The notes under the pieces are model-generated. The model did no database searches. It was not told where the DNA came from and saw only the letters and a program-made list of their open reading frames with translations. The translations under genes and the position numbers were made by a program. This document shows positions 441 through 45,012 of a stretch of DNA of 45,012 nt, one piece after another. The stretch lies in NCBI RefSeq assembly GCF_001096185.1, contig NZ_CRPU01000013.1, forward strand, positions 1 to 45,012. Reading direction: 5' to 3'. Position 1 is the stretch's first letter. The number at the start of each line of letters is the position of its first letter. Origin of the DNA: Streptococcus pneumoniae (GTDB taxonomy: Bacteria > Bacillota > Bacilli > Lactobacillales > Streptococcaceae).

Positions 441-582
441 GTTTTAAAAGGGGCAAAAAAGGGGCAAAAGTGTCGTAAACCTCTGTAAAATGATGTAAAA
501 ACATTTATTTAAAAGCTCAAAATATAGCTGTTTTAAAAGGTATTGTAAGATATAGTAAAACGATGTAAAGGTATTTGTAAAA

Positions 583-597
583 GCCGATGAATTATAA
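583..597 (-). other. attP: Candidate attP core, MM1-like
   Basis: On the minus strand the bases read TTATAATTCATCGGC. This differs at one position from the 15-base core I recall for pneumococcal phage MM1. The site lies between the arm-type repeats and beside the integrase, where attP is expected. The MM1 match is from memory and was not checked. Confidence 0.5.
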
Positions 598-608
598 CGA
601 TATAAAGC

Positions 609-641
609 AACCCCTTGAATTATCAATGTCTTCAAGGGGTT
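609..641. terminator. Hairpin/terminator between attP and integrase
   Basis: The perfect 11-base arms AACCCCTTGAA (609-619) and TTCAAGGGGTT (631-641) flank an 11-base loop. The arm ends in T-rich sequence on the plus strand and moderately so on the minus strand. It could end leftward integrase transcripts and rightward read-through. Confidence 0.55.
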
Positions 642-684
642 TTGTTGTGTTGTGAAATGAAAAAGGGGCAACCAAGGGGCAGAA

Positions 685-1812
685 TTAAAAAATAGTATCT
701 AATTTATTAACCAGTTTATCCTCCATATCCTCAGTTGTATGAGAATAGATTTCCAAAGTCATCTTTGCATTTGAGTGTCCAACTCGATCCATTATTGATT
801 TTATTGGAAGGCCAGACTCTGCTAAAAATGAAATATGAGAATGCCTAAAAATATGGCTAGATAAGTTTTTTTCTATTTTAGCCTGTTTTCCATATTTTTT
901 TAATATCTGTATGAAGCAAGCTATTGTCGTAGGTTGATTCCATTTTTCAAAACAGAAAATATAATCATCGCTTGACAATGGCTGGAAACGTTCGCTAAGT
1001 CGTACTATTTGTCTTTGAATAGCTTCTATGACACTCTCTGATACTTTGATTGTCCGTATTGAATTTGTAGTCTTTGGTAGCGTCTTGATTTTGTTTACTG
1101 AATCAAAATTACCTGTGATCTCAATTTTGTTGTTTTCGAAGTCTATATTCTTCAGTTGTAAGGCAGTTAACTCACCATATCTCATACCAGTTAATGCCAG
1201 CACAAGAACCATATCAGCGTACTTTTGGTGATATTCTCGACGATTAAGGACATCGATAAGTGCTTTTATTTCTTGCATGGTGAGAAAGTTGTTACGCTTT
1301 TTTTCCAGTTCTTCTAAAGTCTTTGGTTTTTGAGGAATCGTAGTATAATCGACCTCGTTGTTTTCAATGTAAGAGTATTGAACAGCGTAATTAAAGATAC
1401 CTCTGAGCCTATGCCGTACTTTTTTAGCTGTAATATATCCGTTGCTTTCAATAATTTTTTCAATAGCCTCTTGAAGAAAACGCCTGTCAAGATTAGCAAG
1501 TATGGTATCGGATGGTATGACTTCCTTCATCTTCTTATCAACTGATTTACAATTATGTTTTGTTGATTCCTTTACTGTTTGCGCCCATGATTTATAGAAA
1601 AGGTTATAGATTTCTTCAAATGTAATGCTTTCTACTTGTTTTGTGCTGAGTTTTTTATTTATCTTCTCTTGCAACAAGATAGCAGCTTGATTTCTTGCCT
1701 GGGGAGTTTTCTTCTCCATGGTCACTGAAACTTTTTTTAATTTCTCAGTATATGGATCTTTATATCTCTCAAAAAATTTGTATTTCCCGTTGGGAAGTTC
1801 TTCCATCCACAT
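685..1812 (-). CDS. int: Tyrosine recombinase integrase
   Basis: Site-specific recombinase of 375 residues that inserts and excises the phage at attP/attB. An N-terminal AP2-like arm-binding region is followed by a SAM-like core-binding domain (about 65-160) and the catalytic domain. The catalytic residues are visible: R211 in TGMRYGEL, H320 and R323 in HIFRHSH, H346 in GHSNAK, and nucleophile Y356 in LEIYSH. The start ATG has GAGGT just upstream. It is the last gene of the leftward lysogeny block and sits beside its attachment site. The full-length family architecture shows no damage. Confidence 0.95.
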   Translation of the reverse strand: MWMEELPNGKYKFFERYKDPYTEKLKKVSVTMEKKTPQARNQAAILLQEKINKKLSTKQVESITFEEIYNLFYKSWAQTVKESTKHNCKSVDKKMKEVIPSDTILANLDRRFLQEAIEKIIESNGYITAKKVRHRLRGIFNYAVQYSYIENNEVDYTTIPQKPKTLEELEKKRNNFLTMQEIKALIDVLNRREYHQKYADMVLVLALTGMRYGELTALQLKNIDFENNKIEITGNFDSVNKIKTLPKTTNSIRTIKVSESVIEAIQRQIVRLSERFQPLSSDDYIFCFEKWNQPTTIACFIQILKKYGKQAKIEKNLSSHIFRHSHISFLAESGLPIKSIMDRVGHSNAKMTLEIYSHTTEDMEDKLVNKLDTIF

Positions 1813-1888
1813 TGCGTTTACCTCACTTTTTTGTTAAAATGGGTATAAGAAAACGACCTTTTGAATGGTTGTTTCTTATAGACGATTT

Positions 1889-1924
1889 CCTCACACTCTC
1901 CTCGACCAAAATTTGAGTGTGGGG
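1889..1924. other. Strong hairpin between PIN gene and integrase
   Basis: Ten-base arms, CCTCACACTC (1889-1898) and GAGTGTGGGG (1915-1924), pair with one G-U. A T-run follows only on the plus strand, so it would stop antisense (rightward) transcription rather than the leftward operon. The rest of the 117-base gap 1813-1929 shows only the integrase leader. Confidence 0.5.
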
Positions 1925-1929
1925 ATTTT

Positions 1930-2496
1930 TTAATTGTTTAAATTTGTATAAACGATTAAAGGCGCTCGAGATTCGAGAAAATCCCTGTCATGAGTTACAA
2001 TACCAAAAGAATTTTTTGTTGCCAAATAATAAAAAATTGCATCATTGTAATCTTTGAGGTTGTACTTACTTGGTTCTATATTTTTTAGTTCATTATGATC
2101 TATGTTTATCAATTTAGCATCGTTCAATATAATCTCAACTTGTTTTAAACTCTCATTAAAAACACTCTCATATTCAGATGTCTTTTGAAATCCTCGTTTG
2201 TATTCAAACTCTACATCATCGATGCTTTCTCCATTTTCTTCACGAATAGACAAATTCTCCTGATAAACTTCAAATGCATTACGACATTTTCGATTGATAT
2301 ATTCAGAAATAGTTAATGTTGTGACATATAAAGTCAAGTCATTTTCTAACGAATATTCCCAAAGCTTATCATATCTAAATCTATTTTCGCCACCAAACAA
2401 ATCCAAAAGGACATTTGTATCAACTAGGATATCCCTACGAGGAAGTCTTGAATTAAGATTGTTTATAGTAGCTTTTACAAAATTAAGATTAGGCAT
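1930..2496 (-). CDS. PIN-domain nuclease, last gene of HATPase-STAS-PIN operon
   Basis: Protein of 188 residues with a PIN-like ribonuclease fold. The acidic residues expected to bind metal are present: D26 in ILVDTNVLLD, E65 in TISEYINR, D152 in DYNDAIFYY and D170 in VTHDRDF. PIN domains cleave RNA and are the toxins of VapBC systems, but no VapB-type antitoxin lies beside it. Instead, its start overlaps the end of the STAS-like gene by 8 bases, so the two are translationally coupled. This suggests (inference) that the nuclease is the effector of a switch formed by the two upstream proteins. It is transcribed with the CI repressor, hence in the lysogen. The sequence is more AT-rich than the late genes. 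Confidence 0.8.
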   Translation of the reverse strand: MPNLNFVKATINNLNSRLPRRDILVDTNVLLDLFGGENRFRYDKLWEYSLENDLTLYVTTLTISEYINRKCRNAFEVYQENLSIREENGESIDDVEFEYKRGFQKTSEYESVFNESLKQVEIILNDAKLINIDHNELKNIEPSKYNLKDYNDAIFYYLATKNSFGIVTHDRDFLESRAPLIVYTNLNN

Positions 2497-2842
2497 TTTG
2501 TTCCTCGATTTCTTGATACATTTTATTCATTTCTGCTTTGTACTGTTCTCTTTTTGTGGTACTATTTTCTATTGAGTAATTAATACAATCCATGAAAATC
2601 TTATTTATATCCTCATTATATCGTATTAAATCTTTGTATTCTGTTAAATTAATCACATCAAAAAGTTTTCCAAACGCTTTATTTGTAAATGATGGGATAA
2701 CAGTTTTTATATCAGAAAAATCAACTGTAACTGGTTCATTATTGGATACTTTTTCTACTAAAATTTCATAGAGAAGTAAACCTTTATCACTACTAGTTGC
2801 TAACTTACTTCCAATAACCTCTTTTACATTTACTGTTTCCAT
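2489..2842 (-). CDS. STAS-like DUF4325 protein
   Basis: Protein of 117 residues. The segment at about 40-58 (VDFSDIKTVIPSFTNKAFG) matches the core of the DUF4325 STAS-like family, related in fold to anti-sigma-factor antagonists such as SpoIIAA. It likely binds the adjacent HATPase protein, as SpoIIAA binds the SpoIIAB kinase. The C-terminus (about 95-117) is a charged helix. AGGAGG precedes the ATG. It lies 23 bases after the HATPase gene and overlaps the PIN gene. Family assignment rests on the motif; the partner role is inference. Confidence 0.7.
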   Translation of the reverse strand: METVNVKEVIGSKLATSSDKGLLLYEILVEKVSNNEPVTVDFSDIKTVIPSFTNKAFGKLFDVINLTEYKDLIRYNEDINKIFMDCINYSIENSTTKREQYKAEMNKMYQEIEEQNA

Positions 2843-2865
2843 ATTATTTCCTCCTGTTTCTTTAA

Positions 2866-3726
2866 TTATAACATTTTATTACATTGTTCGATATCAAAAT
2901 CAAAGATAATTAATGTTCCGCACACATTGTATTCTAATTTTTTATAAGACAAACTCCCATCTTGTTTGATATGAAAATACGAATGATTAGAAAATAATTT
3001 CATAGATGCTTTTTTTGATATTTTTTCTTGTATATAAGCCAAACCGACCCCACTATCTGTGTCGGATTCTAATTCTTTTGTTGTATTTCCTTTTGTAAAA
3101 GCCCATTCAATGGCTTCTTTTTCGCTAGATAAGCTTTTTTTACTTAAAATATAATTTGGTAAGCCAATACCAGTATCTGCAATAGCAAAGCGTATTTTAT
3201 TCATGTTTGGGTAGTGCTGCCCACACATTATAACATTATTTGCACCGGAATGTTCTAAAATGTTATGCACCAGTTCGAAAATGAAAATAGAAATTTCATT
3301 ACGAAAAATAGGTTCGATTTCAGATCTGATTTTTGCAAGAAACTTATTTTCAATGTACTCATCGACAGCATCCTCGTCTTTACAGGGAATCTTAGATAAT
3401 TGAATTACTGTATTTTTATTATCTGATAATCCTTGAGCTAATTTATATCGTTTAAAAAAGCCATTTCGCGATAACAGATTCTGTGTACTTTTAGGTAGCG
3501 ATTTATGATTTGCTTGAACATCATAATCTCTATTATGTAAGCTTTCTACTACCATAGATAATAACACAGTCATTTCTCCGCTAATGAAATTCGTGTTGCT
3601 AAAATTGAGACGTATAATATCATCTTTTTCAAGAACTTCATTAATGTCAGAGTATTGGCTATAAAATTTAGAGATGTTTCTAAACTCAAAATTCAAACTT
3701 CTAGGTATATGAATATAATGCTCCAT
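2866..3726 (-). CDS. STAS-HATPase fusion protein (GHKL ATPase)
   Basis: Protein of 286 residues. An N-terminal STAS-like segment (about 36-75, RLNFSNTNFISGEM) is followed by a GHKL/histidine-kinase-type ATPase domain. The N-box is E151, N155 and H159 in FELVHNILEHSG, the G1 box is DTGIGL (184-189), and the G2 box is SGVGLAYI (225-232). There is no phosphoacceptor histidine domain and no membrane segment, so it is not an ordinary sensor kinase. It resembles anti-sigma-factor kinases or MutL/Hsp90-type ATP switches. GGAGTG precedes the ATG. The gene begins 17 bases after the CI stop, so it shares the repressor transcript. The biological role is unknown; see findings. Confidence 0.75.
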   Translation of the reverse strand: MEHYIHIPRSLNFEFRNISKFYSQYSDINEVLEKDDIIRLNFSNTNFISGEMTVLLSMVVESLHNRDYDVQANHKSLPKSTQNLLSRNGFFKRYKLAQGLSDNKNTVIQLSKIPCKDEDAVDEYIENKFLAKIRSEIEPIFRNEISIFIFELVHNILEHSGANNVIMCGQHYPNMNKIRFAIADTGIGLPNYILSKKSLSSEKEAIEWAFTKGNTTKELESDTDSGVGLAYIQEKISKKASMKLFSNHSYFHIKQDGSLSYKKLEYNVCGTLIIFDFDIEQCNKML

Positions 3727-3743
3727 TATTTCACTCCTTCATT

Positions 3744-4565
3744 TTATTCCCCTCTATACACCCCGATAACCGCATAGATCTTGATGTGTGTGTCTTCGGC
3801 TGGTGGGAAGTCTAGGATGATGTCTTCGTACTTGTCATTGAGCGAGACGAGGCGTAAGCGTCCGTTTTCGGTGTATATCTTCTTAAAGTAAGAACGGTCT
3901 CCGTATGCGATAACTGCTAGGTCTCCGTTATAGGTAGTCAGTCCTTTGTCTACTAAATAGAGAATATCTCCGTCTTGGTAGTCAGGCTGCATGGAGTCTC
4001 CGCTGACCTTAGTCGCAATATCGTGACGTGGTGGTTGCTCGTCAACCTCTATAGTCTCTCTGTCTGTATCGTCGTACCCAAATCCATAGTTAAATCCACA
4101 AGCTGCTGCCGTCTCAGATACAACCTCAACTTGGTACAAGCTGATAACTTCCGATACTTCGTTTTTCTTCGTTTCTTCTTCGTTTTGCTCTATGTACATC
4201 TCGCCGTTTGCTTTTTGTCTCTCCAGAAGCTCCTCAGAAGTCCGTAGGACGATTTTTTTATTATCTGGGGTTAATTGTACCACCTTGTCCGTTATCTGCT
4301 GTGTGAGGAAATCTGGAGTGTCTGGGAGGGAGTCGGTGGTTTCTTCTTTAAAAGTAGTATCTATATCTGATTTTCTAACACCGAAATAATCAGCTAATTT
4401 TTGGATAACACCAAAAGAAGGAGCGCTTCTTAACTTCATATAGTCTGTCATAGTACTTGCTGAAATCCCAACTTCTTTAGCCAATTCTTTTTGGGTGATG
4501 CCACGTTGTTTCCTAAAGTGTGTAATGTTTTCAGCAATAATTTGCATTCGTTTTTTTTCATCCAT
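3744..4565 (-). CDS. cI: CI-like S24 repressor
   Basis: Lysogeny repressor of 273 residues. An N-terminal Cro/CI helix-turn-helix (about 8-62, with ITQKELAKEVGISASTMTDY) is joined by a long acidic linker to a LexA-like S24 autoprotease domain. Catalytic Ser191 lies in VSGDSMQP and Lys228/229 in SYFKKIY. The probable self-cleavage site lies near AAACG (153-157), so RecA-dependent induction is expected. Its start codon sits just behind operator O1, which contains the ribosome-binding site. It heads a leftward operon that continues into the HATPase, DUF4325 and PIN genes. Confidence 0.93.
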   Translation of the reverse strand: MDEKKRMQIIAENITHFRKQRGITQKELAKEVGISASTMTDYMKLRSAPSFGVIQKLADYFGVRKSDIDTTFKEETTDSLPDTPDFLTQQITDKVVQLTPDNKKIVLRTSEELLERQKANGEMYIEQNEEETKKNEVSEVISLYQVEVVSETAAACGFNYGFGYDDTDRETIEVDEQPPRHDIATKVSGDSMQPDYQDGDILYLVDKGLTTYNGDLAVIAYGDRSYFKKIYTENGRLRLVSLNDKYEDIILDFPPAEDTHIKIYAVIGVYRGE

Positions 4566-4566
4566 T

Positions 4567-4581
4567 TACGATTACCTCGTA
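4567..4581. promoter_or_regulatory. Repressor operator O1 (over the cI ribosome-binding site)
   Basis: This is the perfect inverted repeat TACGA-N5-TCGTA. Read on the minus strand, it contains the GAGGT ribosome-binding sequence of cI immediately before the ATG. Repressor binding here would limit its own synthesis. Confidence 0.75.
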
Positions 4582-4596
4582 TTTTTTTATAATTAC

Positions 4597-4625
4597 ATTA
4601 TATATCATTTTTGACCGATAAACAA
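4597..4625 (-). promoter_or_regulatory. Leftward promoter for the lysogeny operon
   Basis: The minus strand reads TTGTTT, 17 bases, then TATAAT (4602-4597). The -10 is perfect and the -35 weak, as for a maintenance promoter. The start would fall near 4590, just ahead of O1. Confidence 0.55.
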
Positions 4626-4633
4626 TAAGAAAA

Positions 4634-4648
4634 TACGAAAAATTCCTA
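4634..4648. promoter_or_regulatory. Repressor operator O2
   Basis: TACGA-N5-TCCTA has one mismatch to the consensus defined by O1 and O3. It lies between the two divergent promoters. Confidence 0.6.
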
Positions 4649-4666
4649 TTTTTTGATAAAAAACTA

Positions 4667-4695
4667 TTGACAGTACGAAAAAATCGTATTATAAT
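4667..4695 (+). promoter_or_regulatory. Rightward early promoter with operator O3
   Basis: A consensus sigma-A promoter: TTGACA (4667-4672), exactly 17 bases, then TATAAT (4690-4695). The spacer contains the perfect operator TACGA-N5-TCGTA at 4674-4688, so bound CI would exclude RNA polymerase. This is the lytic promoter for the early genes. Confidence 0.85.
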
Positions 4696-4728
4696 TAAAT
4701 CAAGCTTAAGGGAAAGGAGGTAAGGCAA

Positions 4729-4866
4729 ATGATGGAACACATCATAAAAAGCCTAGCAACCAAGGACACTGCAACCGTCATCTTGGTACTAGGCTTAACC
4801 AGAGAAGCACGTTTGTGGCACAAACAAATCTTAGAACACAAACGTAAGCTTCAAAACAAAAAGTAG
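4729..4866 (+). CDS. Small basic early protein
   Basis: First gene of the rightward operon, 45 residues, with AGGAGG just upstream of two consecutive ATG codons. A hydrophobic middle (about 16-24, VILVLGLT) is followed by a basic C-terminus rich in Lys, Arg and His. No family is recognised. The position immediately after the early promoter is where Cro or antirepressor-like proteins often lie, but no helix-turn-helix is apparent. Confidence 0.6.
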   Translation: MMEHIIKSLATKDTATVILVLGLTREARLWHKQILEHKRKLQNKK

Positions 4867-4927
4867 AGAAAGGGGCAGTTGCCCCAACCTCTACTTGATA
4901 GTGTACCATCATTTGCCGTGAAAAGCA

Positions 4928-5032
4928 ATGGATGAAAATGTTGGATTGATAATCCTAGCAGGATTTGTGATTGTATCTTTCACTATCCGTAAGATAGTGG
5001 AATACCGATGTGATAAAAAAGATAAGGAGTAG
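4928..5032 (+). CDS. Tiny single-pass membrane protein
   Basis: A 34-residue ORF, too short for most gene callers. Residues 5-20 are hydrophobic (VGLIILAGFVIVSF) and the C-terminus is charged (RKIVEYRCDKKDKE), giving one predicted membrane helix. The upstream sequence has no clear ribosome-binding site, so its expression is uncertain. It precedes the next small gene by four bases. Confidence 0.45.
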   Translation: MDENVGLIILAGFVIVSFTIRKIVEYRCDKKDKE

Positions 5033-5036
5033 GGAA

Positions 5037-5174
5037 ATGAACGAACTAGAAAGAACAGCCCTCAATGAGATATTGAGGACCGTGACCTATATTGCTGAGA
5101 AGTTGGATGAACTAGATTCTAAGATTTCTCAATCAGAAGAAGATGTAAAAAGTAACGCTTCATCTGCATCATAA
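5037..5174 (+). CDS. Small coiled-coil-like early protein
   Basis: A 45-residue ORF (MNELERTALNEIL...) with GGGAAA upstream. It is helical and acidic, with heptad-like leucines and a Ser/Ala-rich end. Its last 46 bases overlap, on the opposite strand, the 3' end of the leftward DUF4145 gene. No function is recognised. Confidence 0.5.
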   Translation: MNELERTALNEILRTVTYIAEKLDELDSKISQSEEDVKSNASSAS

Positions 5175-5815
5175 TCAGCAGCAATAAATTGAGCTGCCGA
5201 GAGAATGAATTTCTTTAAATCATCGATATCTTTACCATCGTGTCTGCGGACATAATGAGTCTCGTCATTACCAATCCAGGCAACAGATTTTGCCAAGGCT
5301 TGAATTTTTGGGAAATCATTTAAGTATGTAGCGATTACTTGTCCAAGCATAATTGTTTTGATTTTTCCTTCATCGTCTTTGTTTTTAGCGATTGCGTAAT
5401 CTTTTATGAGAAATTCTGCTGCTTTACGATAGCCGACACCTGCTATTTGGTCTAATGCCTCTCTTTCTGCAATTGTTGCTTGAGAATAGATTTCAACAAA
5501 AACGGGAGAAACTTTTTCTATGTTTTCAGGGAGTTTAACCTTGATTGGAGGGCGGTAGGTGTAGTCAGCAATTATACAAGGTTTAGATGCAGATGTGAGA
5601 ATATACTCAACAGCAAAGTATTTTTTACAAGTTGAGCGTGAGCAACGAAAAGTAACAACAAAGCGAGCATCTCCACTAGAGTAAATGTCCTCGCTGTCTG
5701 AAACGTATATCATTTCAGGCGAGATATTTTTTCCGCAATGTGGGCAATATTCAGGATATTCAAATTTTACTGTCTGACGACTCGCGCCAGGGAATGAAAC
5801 GATAGTGGTTTTCAT
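5129..5815 (-). CDS. DUF4145-domain protein, leftward moron
   Basis: Protein of 228 residues from the ATG at 5815, which has GGAGAA nine bases upstream; an in-frame TTG at 5830 is less likely. The N-terminus carries a zinc-ribbon-like pair, CPHC at about residues 23-26 and CSRSTC near 57. The rest fits DUF4145 (AEREALDQIAGVGYRKAAEFLIKDY), a domain also found fused to type I restriction subunits. Its own function is unknown. It is transcribed against the early operon from a private promoter, so it is probably expressed in the lysogen. It converges with and overlaps the preceding rightward gene. Confidence 0.75.
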   Translation of the reverse strand: MKTTIVSFPGASRQTVKFEYPEYCPHCGKNISPEMIYVSDSEDIYSSGDARFVVTFRCSRSTCKKYFAVEYILTSASKPCIIADYTYRPPIKVKLPENIEKVSPVFVEIYSQATIAEREALDQIAGVGYRKAAEFLIKDYAIAKNKDDEGKIKTIMLGQVIATYLNDFPKIQALAKSVAWIGNDETHYVRRHDGKDIDDLKKFILSAAQFIAADYDADEALLFTSSSD

Positions 5816-5843
5816 AGCTATTTTCTCCAATCATTTTATTTTG

Positions 5844-8105: not shown

Positions 8106-8267
8106 ATGAGACCAATAGGATATCGGCTTAATGTTGAAGTTTCTGGTATTGAAGAATTCAAGGAAGCTTGTAAAGAAGTATTAAAAAAAGCCGAAGAATT
8201 GCAAGAAGCAATCGATCGACTTAGTATTATTGAAGTTGAATTAAAAGCCAAGCTTGTCAATGATTAG
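8106..8267 (+). CDS. Small helical early protein
   Basis: A 53-residue protein after AAAGGAGTAGAG. A short strand (IGYRLNVEVSG) leads into a long amphipathic helix (EEFKEACKEVLKKAEELQEAIDRL), suggesting a dimeric coiled coil. No family is recognised. It resumes the rightward series after the leftward membrane protein. Confidence 0.6.
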   Translation: MRPIGYRLNVEVSGIEEFKEACKEVLKKAEELQEAIDRLSIIEVELKAKLVND

Positions 8268-8359
8268 ACTTTCTGTCTAAGGCAAAACAAAAGAGCACCT
8301 AACAGAAGTCAGGCGCTAATCAAAATAACTAACTGAATTATAACACGAAAGGAGCAAAA

Positions 8360-8632
8360 ATGGAAGCAGTTGAAATTGTAAGAATTAAAGATGTGATTAT
8401 TGAAAAAGTCTCTGCTAATGATGAGGAATTAGAACACATCTTTGGATGCTCAAAGCGACAAGCGGGAGACATGAGACGCGAGATGAAAAAGCTACCTAGC
8501 CAACAGAAACATCTTAGGAATGATGGCCAACTTGTCACGATTAAAGGTTTTGATGCTTATCTGCAATACAGAGGAACTCGAACTTGGAAGAAAGAAATGG
8601 CGAAAAGCAAGAAAATGAGGTCAGTTGGATGA
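8360..8632 (+). CDS. Phage HTH protein, possible excisionase-like
   Basis: A 90-residue basic protein with AAAGGAG upstream. The segment LEHIFGCSKRQAGDMRREMKKLP (about 24-46) resembles the helix-turn-helix of small phage DNA-binding proteins. The C-terminus is strongly basic (TRTWKKEMAKSKKMR). No other excisionase candidate is evident, so it could serve that role; this is inference. Its stop overlaps the next tiny ORF. Confidence 0.55.
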   Translation: MEAVEIVRIKDVIIEKVSANDEELEHIFGCSKRQAGDMRREMKKLPSQQKHLRNDGQLVTIKGFDAYLQYRGTRTWKKEMAKSKKMRSVG

Positions 8633-8688
8633 ACTTTTTAACAAAAATAAAAAACTGGTTGGAAAAAGAGAAAAAATTAAAGATTTAG
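8629..8688 (+). CDS. Tiny basic peptide ORF
   Basis: A 19-residue ORF (MNFLTKIKNWLEKEKKLKI) whose ATG overlaps the preceding TGA as ATGA, favouring translational coupling. It is an amphipathic basic helix. It is too short to assign. Confidence 0.35.
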   Translation: MNFLTKIKNWLEKEKKLKI

Positions 8689-8701
8689 AGGAGAGAGAAC
8701 A

Positions 8702-9028
8702 ATGAACGAACCGTTAATAGTTAGCCAGCTTTTAGGAAATGGCGCAGTGATTTTAGGGTTTATCAGCGCAGGTATTTTAGCTCATCAGTTAGAAAAGCAA
8801 AAAGAGGAAGAAAGACGAGAAGAGCAAGAATTTGCGTCTATGATTATTCAAGGATACAACCATGCATACGAACGTGGTAGAGAGGCAGAACGCCAACAAA
8901 TCCGCAAGAATATCCGTCGTCCATTTCCTGGATTTACCTATGACAACGAACCGCCTGTAGGTTTGCGCCCGGAACCTCTGGCATTACCAGAGCCAAAGAG
9001 AGTACGATATGCAAATCGTATGGGATAG
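8702..9028 (+). CDS. Membrane-anchored coiled-coil protein
   Basis: A 108-residue protein with GAGGAGAG before the ATG. Residues about 8-26 form a membrane helix (SQLLGNGAVILGFISAGIL). A highly charged helix (HQLEKQKEEERREEQEF) and a Pro-rich C-terminus follow. Similar small proteins are common in streptococcal phage early regions; no function is established. Confidence 0.65.
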   Translation: MNEPLIVSQLLGNGAVILGFISAGILAHQLEKQKEEERREEQEFASMIIQGYNHAYERGREAERQQIRKNIRRPFPGFTYDNEPPVGLRPEPLALPEPKRVRYANRMG

Positions 9029-9200
9029 ACAAGCGTGGGATTTATCCACTTGCAAGCGTAGAGAGAAAATGCGTGACCTTGAAATGATGGCGCATATGCA
9101 ACATGAAATCGATGATCTCAAGAAACAATTGCAACAGGAACAATCTTTGAGAAAGAGATTAGAAGCAGAGAATTTCCAACTGAAACTACGGAGGAAATAA
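9009..9200 (+). CDS. Small coiled-coil protein
   Basis: A 63-residue ORF overlapping the previous gene by 20 bases. An in-frame ATG at 9069 with GAGAGA upstream is an equally good start and would give the compact 43-residue helix MRDLEMMAHMQHEIDDLKKQ and onward. Heptads of Leu/Met with Glu/Lys indicate a coiled coil. Function unknown. Confidence 0.55.
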   Translation: MQIVWDRQAWDLSTCKRREKMRDLEMMAHMQHEIDDLKKQLQQEQSLRKRLEAENFQLKLRRK

Positions 9201-9334
9201 TGTACTTATGGAAGTGTACGTGCGCTGATTGTGGACGTGAGTTTGATTGGTACGATAACTATCCACCTCTTGAATGTGTGAAATGTGAGAGCGTGGAAAT
9301 AAAAAATGAATTTAAAGGAAGGGCGTATGATTAA
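9200..9334 (+). CDS. Zinc-ribbon mini-protein
   Basis: A 44-residue ORF with GGAGGAAATA upstream. Two cysteine pairs, CTCADC near the start and CVKC in the middle, form a rubredoxin-like zinc knuckle. Its stop directly abuts the next start codon, so it is in the same operon. Such mini zinc ribbons are common in phages and probably bind nucleic acid or protein. Confidence 0.65.
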   Translation: MYLWKCTCADCGREFDWYDNYPPLECVKCESVEIKNEFKGRAYD

Positions 9335-9676
9335 ATGACTCAAGCGGAACGAATTAGGGAATATTATAGAGATCACCCTGCTGCCTCATGTGATGAAGTG
9401 GCTGAGGTTGTCGGTACAACAAATAGTAATGTGAGGGCGAATTTGGCTAAAGACATCAAGGCAGGCAGATGCGTTCGCTTGGAAGATAAGTCATACGACT
9501 ACTCGCCTTACTATAACCATACACAAGCGCTCACTGAGTTGGTTGATTGGAAGAATGATACTAGACGTGAGTGGGTGGAAATGCTGACAAGAGCAGCAGA
9601 GAAAGAAACTGATAGCAACGTTATGCGTTTGCTAATCAAAGAAGCAAATAAATTGATGAAAGAGGTGACGAAGTAA
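9335..9676 (+). CDS. Winged-HTH-like early protein
   Basis: A 113-residue protein. The N-terminal segment QAERIREYYRDHPAASCDEV with VVGTTNSNVRANLAK looks like a winged helix-turn-helix, and the C-terminal part is a charged helical region. Its last base is shared with the next start codon (TAATG). It probably regulates or assists the following replication and recombination genes. The family is not firmly identified. Confidence 0.6.
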   Translation: MTQAERIREYYRDHPAASCDEVAEVVGTTNSNVRANLAKDIKAGRCVRLEDKSYDYSPYYNHTQALTELVDWKNDTRREWVEMLTRAAEKETDSNVMRLLIKEANKLMKEVTK

Positions 9677-44290: not shown

Positions 44291-45012
44291 TGGATATCGA
44301 TACAAGCAGACTACGTACAGGCTTGCCCCAGGTTGGGGTGCAGCCTTATCGACAAGTACACGGCCACTCAACAGGCAACCGCAACTCAACAGCTCAAAAT
44401 GAGGCGGACTACCACTACAGAAAGAACCCTGAGCTTGGCTTCTTTTCTCATGTCGTTGGAAATGGTCGTGTTATGCAGGTAGGACCTGTAAATAACGGAT
44501 CTTGGGACGTTGGTGGCGGTTGGAATGCTGAGACCTATGCAGCAGTTGAGCTGATTGAAAGCCATTCAACTAAAGAAGAGTTCATGACAGACTATCGCCT
44601 TTATATCGAATTGCTACGAAACCTAGCAGATGAAGCAGGCTTGCCGAAGACACTTGATACAGACGACTTGGCAGGTATCAAAACGCATGAATACTGTACT
44701 AATAACCAGCCTAACAACAACTCAGACCATGTGGATCCATACCCTTACTTGGCAAAATGGGGCATTAGCCGTGAACAGTTCAATCAGGATATTGAAAACG
44801 GCTTGACAATTGAAACAGGCTGGCAGAAGAACGATACAGGCTACTGGTACGTACACTCAGACGGCTCTTATCCAAAAGATAAGTTTGAGAAAGTCAATGG
44901 TACCTGGTATTACTTTGACGGTTCAGGATATATGCTTGCAGACCGCTGGAAGAAGCACACAGACGGCAACTGGTACTGGTTTGACCAGTCAGGCGAAATG
45001 GCGACAGGCTGG
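44290..45012 (+). CDS. lytA: LytA-type amidase, N-terminal part (runs off window)
   Basis: The first 241 residues of the N-acetylmuramoyl-L-alanine amidase. The Amidase_2 domain spans about 1-170, with zinc ligand H26 in [23 protein letters not shown], and the second ligand region [10 protein letters not shown]. Choline-binding repeats begin at about 175 ([12 protein letters not shown]). It continues at base 148 of the window. It has no signal peptide, so export depends on the holin. Confidence 0.95.
44866..45012 (+). repeat. Terminal redundancy of the circular genome (copy 2)
   Basis: Matches 1-147 with one synonymous difference (44928). Within the lytA choline-binding region. Confidence 0.9.

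Follow-up and report, generated by a model that had tools for sequence, protein, structure and literature searches.

What do three leftward genes, encoding a STAS-HATPase fusion, a DUF4325 protein and a PIN nuclease, do between the repressor and integrase genes of a Streptococcus pneumoniae prophage? The locus lies in contig NZ_CRPU01000013.1 (assembly GCF_001096185.1), of which positions 1 to 45,012, the whole stretch analysed, are referred to here as the window. A sequence-only reading of this DNA had proposed a SpoIIAB/SpoIIAA-like switch with an RNase as its output and a role in defence or conflict, adding that it knew of no characterised system with this set of genes. That last statement is now out of date: VapKSC, from Escherichia sp. 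E4736, was published in June 2026 together with a structure, PDB 9Z7O (PMC13373217), and prior description as a known system is what the sequence-only reading had itself named as grounds for giving up its candidate. The proposed switch, output and role are those given for VapKSC in the main text of that paper, and to this extent the proposal stood. The Ser or Thr expected in the antitoxin, on which the sequence-only reading was silent, is not at its usual site here. We put at roughly 0.7 the probability that the window operon is a vapKSC that a temperate phage carries as lysogeny cargo and that confers an abortive-type protection on the lysogen, its phospho-switch being altered or moved along by one residue. 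A phage gene set that had been uncharacterised would in this way be linked to a system of known structure and mechanism.

According to the main text of PMC13373217, Escherichia VapC is a toxic PIN protein, which VapS binds by means of its STAS domain and its C-terminal helix, and thereby neutralises; the VapS-VapC complex comes apart when the VapS serine is replaced by a phosphomimetic residue, VapK is proposed to respond to single-stranded DNA (ssDNA), and cells with the operon are protected against phage Bas42 by about 2 logs.

Probable assignment of the operon to VapKSC

The layout described by the sequence-only reading was borne out in full, from the 17 bases that separate the CI gene from the ATPase gene to the motifs, the residues and the 8-base overlap of the DUF4325 and PIN reading frames. 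The vapK-like gene (2866-3726, minus strand) encodes a STAS and GHKL kinase of 286 amino acids, the vapS-like gene (2489-2842, minus strand) a DUF4325 STAS antitoxin of 117, and the vapC-like gene (1930-2496, minus strand) a PIN nuclease of 188; all three frames are open, and stand in K-S-C order on one strand as in VapKSC. Upstream is a CI-type repressor with helix-turn-helix (HTH) and Peptidase_S24 domains (3744-4565, minus strand), the first gene of the presumed transcript, and 117 bases beyond vapC lies a tyrosine integrase gene (685-1812, minus strand). In a consensus scan of positions 600-5000, no terminator-like site was found between the ATPase and integrase genes, the minus-strand sites being at 4872-4885 and, inside cI, at 4126-4144; promoter-like matches, several of them inside the operon, were at chance level (23, against 18.5 +/- 4.1 in shuffles). 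Co-transcription of the operon with cI is therefore plausible.

Window VapS is homologous to 9Z7O VapS (E 5.6e-21) and has the STAS fold, and its predicted structure ends in a single long helix (residues 81-116), for which the reach of the Escherichia helix to the VapC active site is the point of comparison. Window VapC is homologous to 9Z7O VapC in a profile search (E 2.6e-16); the match needs the profile, as a single-sequence search did not recover it. Residues D26, E65, D149, D152, D170 and D172 are invariant in the alignment, where D26 aligns with the catalytic D28, and the VapC of 7by2 was matched at 2.8e-4 with profile A9. In VapK, the catalytic residues are kept (E151/N155/H159, D184-G-x-G and G226-x-G228), and both the model and the gene start place the beginning of the protein at the STAS domain, without an N-terminal HTH. 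Its F47 falls in a column that is aromatic in 10 of 11 aligned rows (Arg in the Verrucomicrobiales locus, L006), and may be equivalent to F54 of Escherichia VapK, itself the counterpart of the ssDNA-associated aromatic residue W68 of CapK. Structure searches with the VapK and VapS models placed the SpoIIAB/SpoIIAA and RsbW/RsbV partner switches first, and 9Z7O was absent from the best 50 matches listed for either model. Against PHROGs, the window proteins matched only phrog_3364 (VapK) and phrog_9989, both of unknown function, with no match for the PIN protein; an NCBIfam scan of the operon proteins gave nothing above cut-off.

Gene order, an HTH-less STAS-GHKL kinase, a DUF4325/STAS antitoxin with a C-terminal helix and a PIN toxin are thus common to the window and to VapKSC as published; the window copy differs in sitting within a prophage lysogeny operon and in having Pro50-Ser51 at the Ser48 site of VapS. 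Other known systems fit less well. CapK and CapS (main text of PMC13373217) also pair a STAS-GHKL kinase with a STAS partner and are linked to immunity genes, but CapK begins with an HTH domain, and CapS contains a winged HTH and represses transcription; neither domain was found in the window proteins, and no HTH family was matched in window VapK or VapS up to E 1 (Pfam). SpoIIAB/SpoIIAA and RsbW/RsbV share the GHKL kinase and STAS partner, whereas the window output is a PIN nuclease rather than a sigma factor and the window kinase has a STAS domain of its own. VapBC likewise has a PIN toxin of the VapC superfamily, but here the antitoxin is a STAS protein accompanied by a kinase; VapBC was set aside, the neighbour of vapC being a DUF4325 gene and not a VapB-type DNA-binding antitoxin. 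The comparison with defence-family hidden Markov models that had been suggested for this locus returned only DrmA of DISARM (PADLOC), both for the window ATPase and for three of four other VapK proteins tried; since the window match covers just positions 5-268 of a model 1750 positions long (the first 275 overall), and no helicase family was found (Pfam), it was rejected. The parts of the DUF4325 literature consulted hold no description of this gene set, searches for VapKSC returned nothing beyond PMC13373217, those for CapK and CapS with prophage nothing further related, and for the PIN systems DS-3 and DS-5 of DefensePredictor the text consulted describes no STAS partner (PMC13092281).

Recurrence in the lysogeny modules of phages

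In the gene-neighbourhood comparison that the sequence-only reading had called for, the three genes were found together elsewhere. Phage records, plasmids, IMG/VR, GTDB contigs and genomes were searched, with loci fetched by K or S queries, and weak VapK matches to other GHKL proteins or to K-S pairs were left out of the counts. Fifteen loci with distinct VapS sequences carry all three genes: the window, Streptococcus phage Javan172, a Deinococcus gobiensis plasmid, a human faecal phage contig and a Verrucomicrobiales metagenome-assembled genome (MAG), then G155, G199, G270 and G988 from the window's genus, and L016 (double L017), L064, L068, L069, L070 and L071 from IMG/VR. Order and strand are the same in 15 of 15. 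The pairwise identities of the three proteins co-vary (Mantel r 0.94, 0.94 and 0.91, with none of 2000 permutations as high). Per gene, identity between the window and the other 14 loci is 15-37%. A search of 284 genomes from the window's genus gave some match in 24; in five the match was strong (E at most 1.3e-101, followed by 6.7e-33), and all five carry the triple. The window ATPase as a single query found no relative among viral contigs; the alignment A1 search of genome contigs found two loci. In G199 (L009/L063), an internal TGA truncates vapK at 272 amino acids, with vapS and vapC still open.

The slot between cI and int, singled out by the sequence-only reading, recurs in other phages: a repressor, the operon and an integrase lie on one strand in 8 of the 15 loci, including all five strong-match genomes of the window's genus. 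The repressor is an S24 CI in the window, L064 and G155, and an HTH protein with an ImmA-type M78 peptidase in Javan172, G199, G270, G988 and L068. Spacing varies, with an 84-amino-acid gene between CI and vapK in G155, a 273-amino-acid gene and 624 bases between repressor module and vapK in L068, and 936 bases between vapC and int in G199. Elsewhere, the operon follows lysin genes (3 of 15: L016, L069 and L070), or is found on the plasmid, on contigs L004 and L071 and in the Verrucomicrobiales MAG (4 of 15). In this MAG, a homologue of HmaB, of the Hma defence system, comes directly after vapKSC (L006, 4007-8606; PADLOC E 1.6e-298). In G270 (L075, 8234-12068), an integrase gene beside an HU gene is followed by vapKSC, ImmA-type and HTH genes and then chromosomal-looking genes; the integrase resembles that of the window at its N-terminus, and the whole may be a prophage remnant or a small element.

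Among related phages, then, the lysogeny module carries VapKSC again and again. This placement would be new relative to the main text of PMC13373217, in which we did not find it: there, 'prophage' occurs once, for another system, and 'lysogen' nowhere, although the paper's 289 loci may include these phages. Possibly the same slot is occupied in the Francisella hispaniensis prophage KIRK, where the text consulted lists consecutively a CI (S24), a 293-amino-acid hypothetical protein and a 112-amino-acid DUF4325 protein, the integrase lying four genes on and no PIN protein being named (PMC7924643).

The VapS phosphosite and competing explanations

The point that weighs against assigning the window operon to VapKSC lies in the antitoxin. 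VapKSC calls for a Ser or Thr at the position of Escherichia VapS Ser48, the proposed phospho-acceptor, and in the window this position is Pro50, with Ser51 adjacent (codons 2690-2695, minus strand, counted from the gene start at 2842). The stretch aligns without gaps, VIPSFTN in the window against LITAFLN and LISAFSN in relatives and FASPFFN in 9Z7O; in the VapS model, Pro50 starts a helix (50-56) that includes Ser51. Ser or Thr fills the column in 14 of 15 VapC-bearing loci and in 9Z7O, Pro in the window only, a substitution that, like the placement of the operon, we did not find in the main text of PMC13373217. Where a kinase but no VapC was found beside the DUF4325 gene, the figure is 11 of 13 (the other two being Asn and Pro), and where the fetched flank showed no kinase it is 2 of 8, the other six having His or Pro (L114, L127, L119, L117, L072 and L073). 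Pooled, this gives 25 of 28 with a kinase against 2 of 8 without (Fisher p 0.0010, or 0.0012 when the one-residue variants L087 and L088 count once). Because the sequences lack independence (a single genome supplies two of the eight kinase-less ones), and the flanks mostly extend to about 1.5 kb, retention of Ser/Thr alongside a kinase is a soft trend, and not proof.

Loss of the phospho-switch is a live rival here. VapC would then be held permanently, by a locked or decaying copy that is inert or triggered only by loss of VapS; the rarity of Pro, His or Asn at the site where a kinase is present (3 of 28), against 6 of 8 where it is not, speaks for this. Saying this, the three open frames and the retained catalytic residues of VapK and VapC argue for selection on function, Ser51 lies adjacent in the same helix and the trend itself is soft. 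The intact VapK and VapC frames and the adjacent Ser51 favour a shifted over a lost phosphosite; we regard a locked copy as improbable. An addiction module, in which VapS-VapC stabilises the prophage by killing phage-free cells, with VapK as a modulator and any anti-phage effect incidental, we rate as unlikely, if a little less so. The genes do ride mobile elements (phages and the Deinococcus plasmid), VapS neutralises VapC in the published system (main text of PMC13373217), and the G270 operon lies on a short stretch between the HU-adjacent integrase and chromosomal-looking genes about 7 kb away. A plain addiction pair needs no VapK, yet VapK is encoded in all 15 VapC-bearing loci (one, G199, with the stop-shortened gene), the eight S loci without K show no VapC either, and the published operon protects against phage (PMC13373217). 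The least probable of the three, to our minds, is that the K-S pair acts alongside CI to tune prophage induction, and that VapC arrests the host during or against induction. The slot shared with CI or with HTH and ImmA-type genes (8 of 15 loci) speaks for this, as does the expectation that ssDNA acts on CI (S24) as well as on VapK; operons that follow lysin genes, sit on a plasmid or adjoin HmaB speak against it.

For vapKSC as protective lysogeny cargo, we propose the following model. In the lysogen, transcription from cI would continue into the operon, with VapS keeping VapC inactive; ssDNA, brought in by an infecting phage or arising through damage, would switch on VapK, which would phosphorylate VapS, most likely on Ser51, one residue past the usual position, given that Pro50 occupies the canonical site; VapC, once freed, would cut RNA and halt growth, and the prophage's host population would be protected from superinfection. 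S24 CI repressors respond to ssDNA (CI/RecA), so that, if VapK does too, induction and the release of VapC would set in at the same time in a damaged lysogen. How a prophage whose induction makes ssDNA coexists with such a trigger is a puzzle, for which shut-off of the cI transcript, thresholds and the altered VapS are candidate resolutions. It is a tentative and rather doubtful thought that temperate phages have repeatedly wired VapKSC downstream of DNA-damage-responsive repressors (S24 CI or ImmR-ImmA), such that one ssDNA signal leads to prophage escape or to host arrest, and that the window phage may have retuned the arrest by moving the phospho-acceptor of VapS by one residue. The Pro50-Ser51 antitoxin is a natural test of how fixed the phosphosite of GHKL-STAS pairs is.

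Probable excision and related gene pairs

The window contig passes unbroken through a 16-base attP core (582-597) that is common to both prophage ends on the chromosome contig. On contig C6 of the same genome (L085), a one-N join separates the left end (window 582-1666) from the right, which corresponds to window 44793-45012 and 1-597, the latter at 99.7%; the left junction is at the 3' end of the whiA gene (Pfam). The last 147 bases of the window (44866-45012) repeat the first 147 (1-147) with one mismatch. The simplest reading would be that the sequenced culture held both integrated prophage and excised circles, i.e. an excising phage.

Several loci from the window's genus carry a VapK-like kinase with a DUF4325 partner of about 99 amino acids and no VapC. 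The arrangement was noted in L076, L078, L087, L088, L077 and L079, and the one partner scanned, that of L076, has DUF4325 only (Pfam). The pair directly follows ResIII and Eco57I-type restriction genes in L076 (G190, 8208-9400), follows an SNF2-PLD helicase in L078 (G042, 8219-9411) and adjoins phage lysis genes in L087, L088 and L077. Similar pairs come after a gene annotated lysin in S. agalactiae phage LYGO9, and, in phiGBSVK-D, behind a holin gene and another whose annotation is 'integrase family protein'. Their length and content fit neither CapKS nor VapKSC as published, and they appear to form a third arrangement. In the early region of the window, a minus-strand gene (5129-5830) has a weak match to DUF4145 (1.4e-4, below cut-off), and a protein that resembles its product by eye is encoded in L075 (13355-14047).
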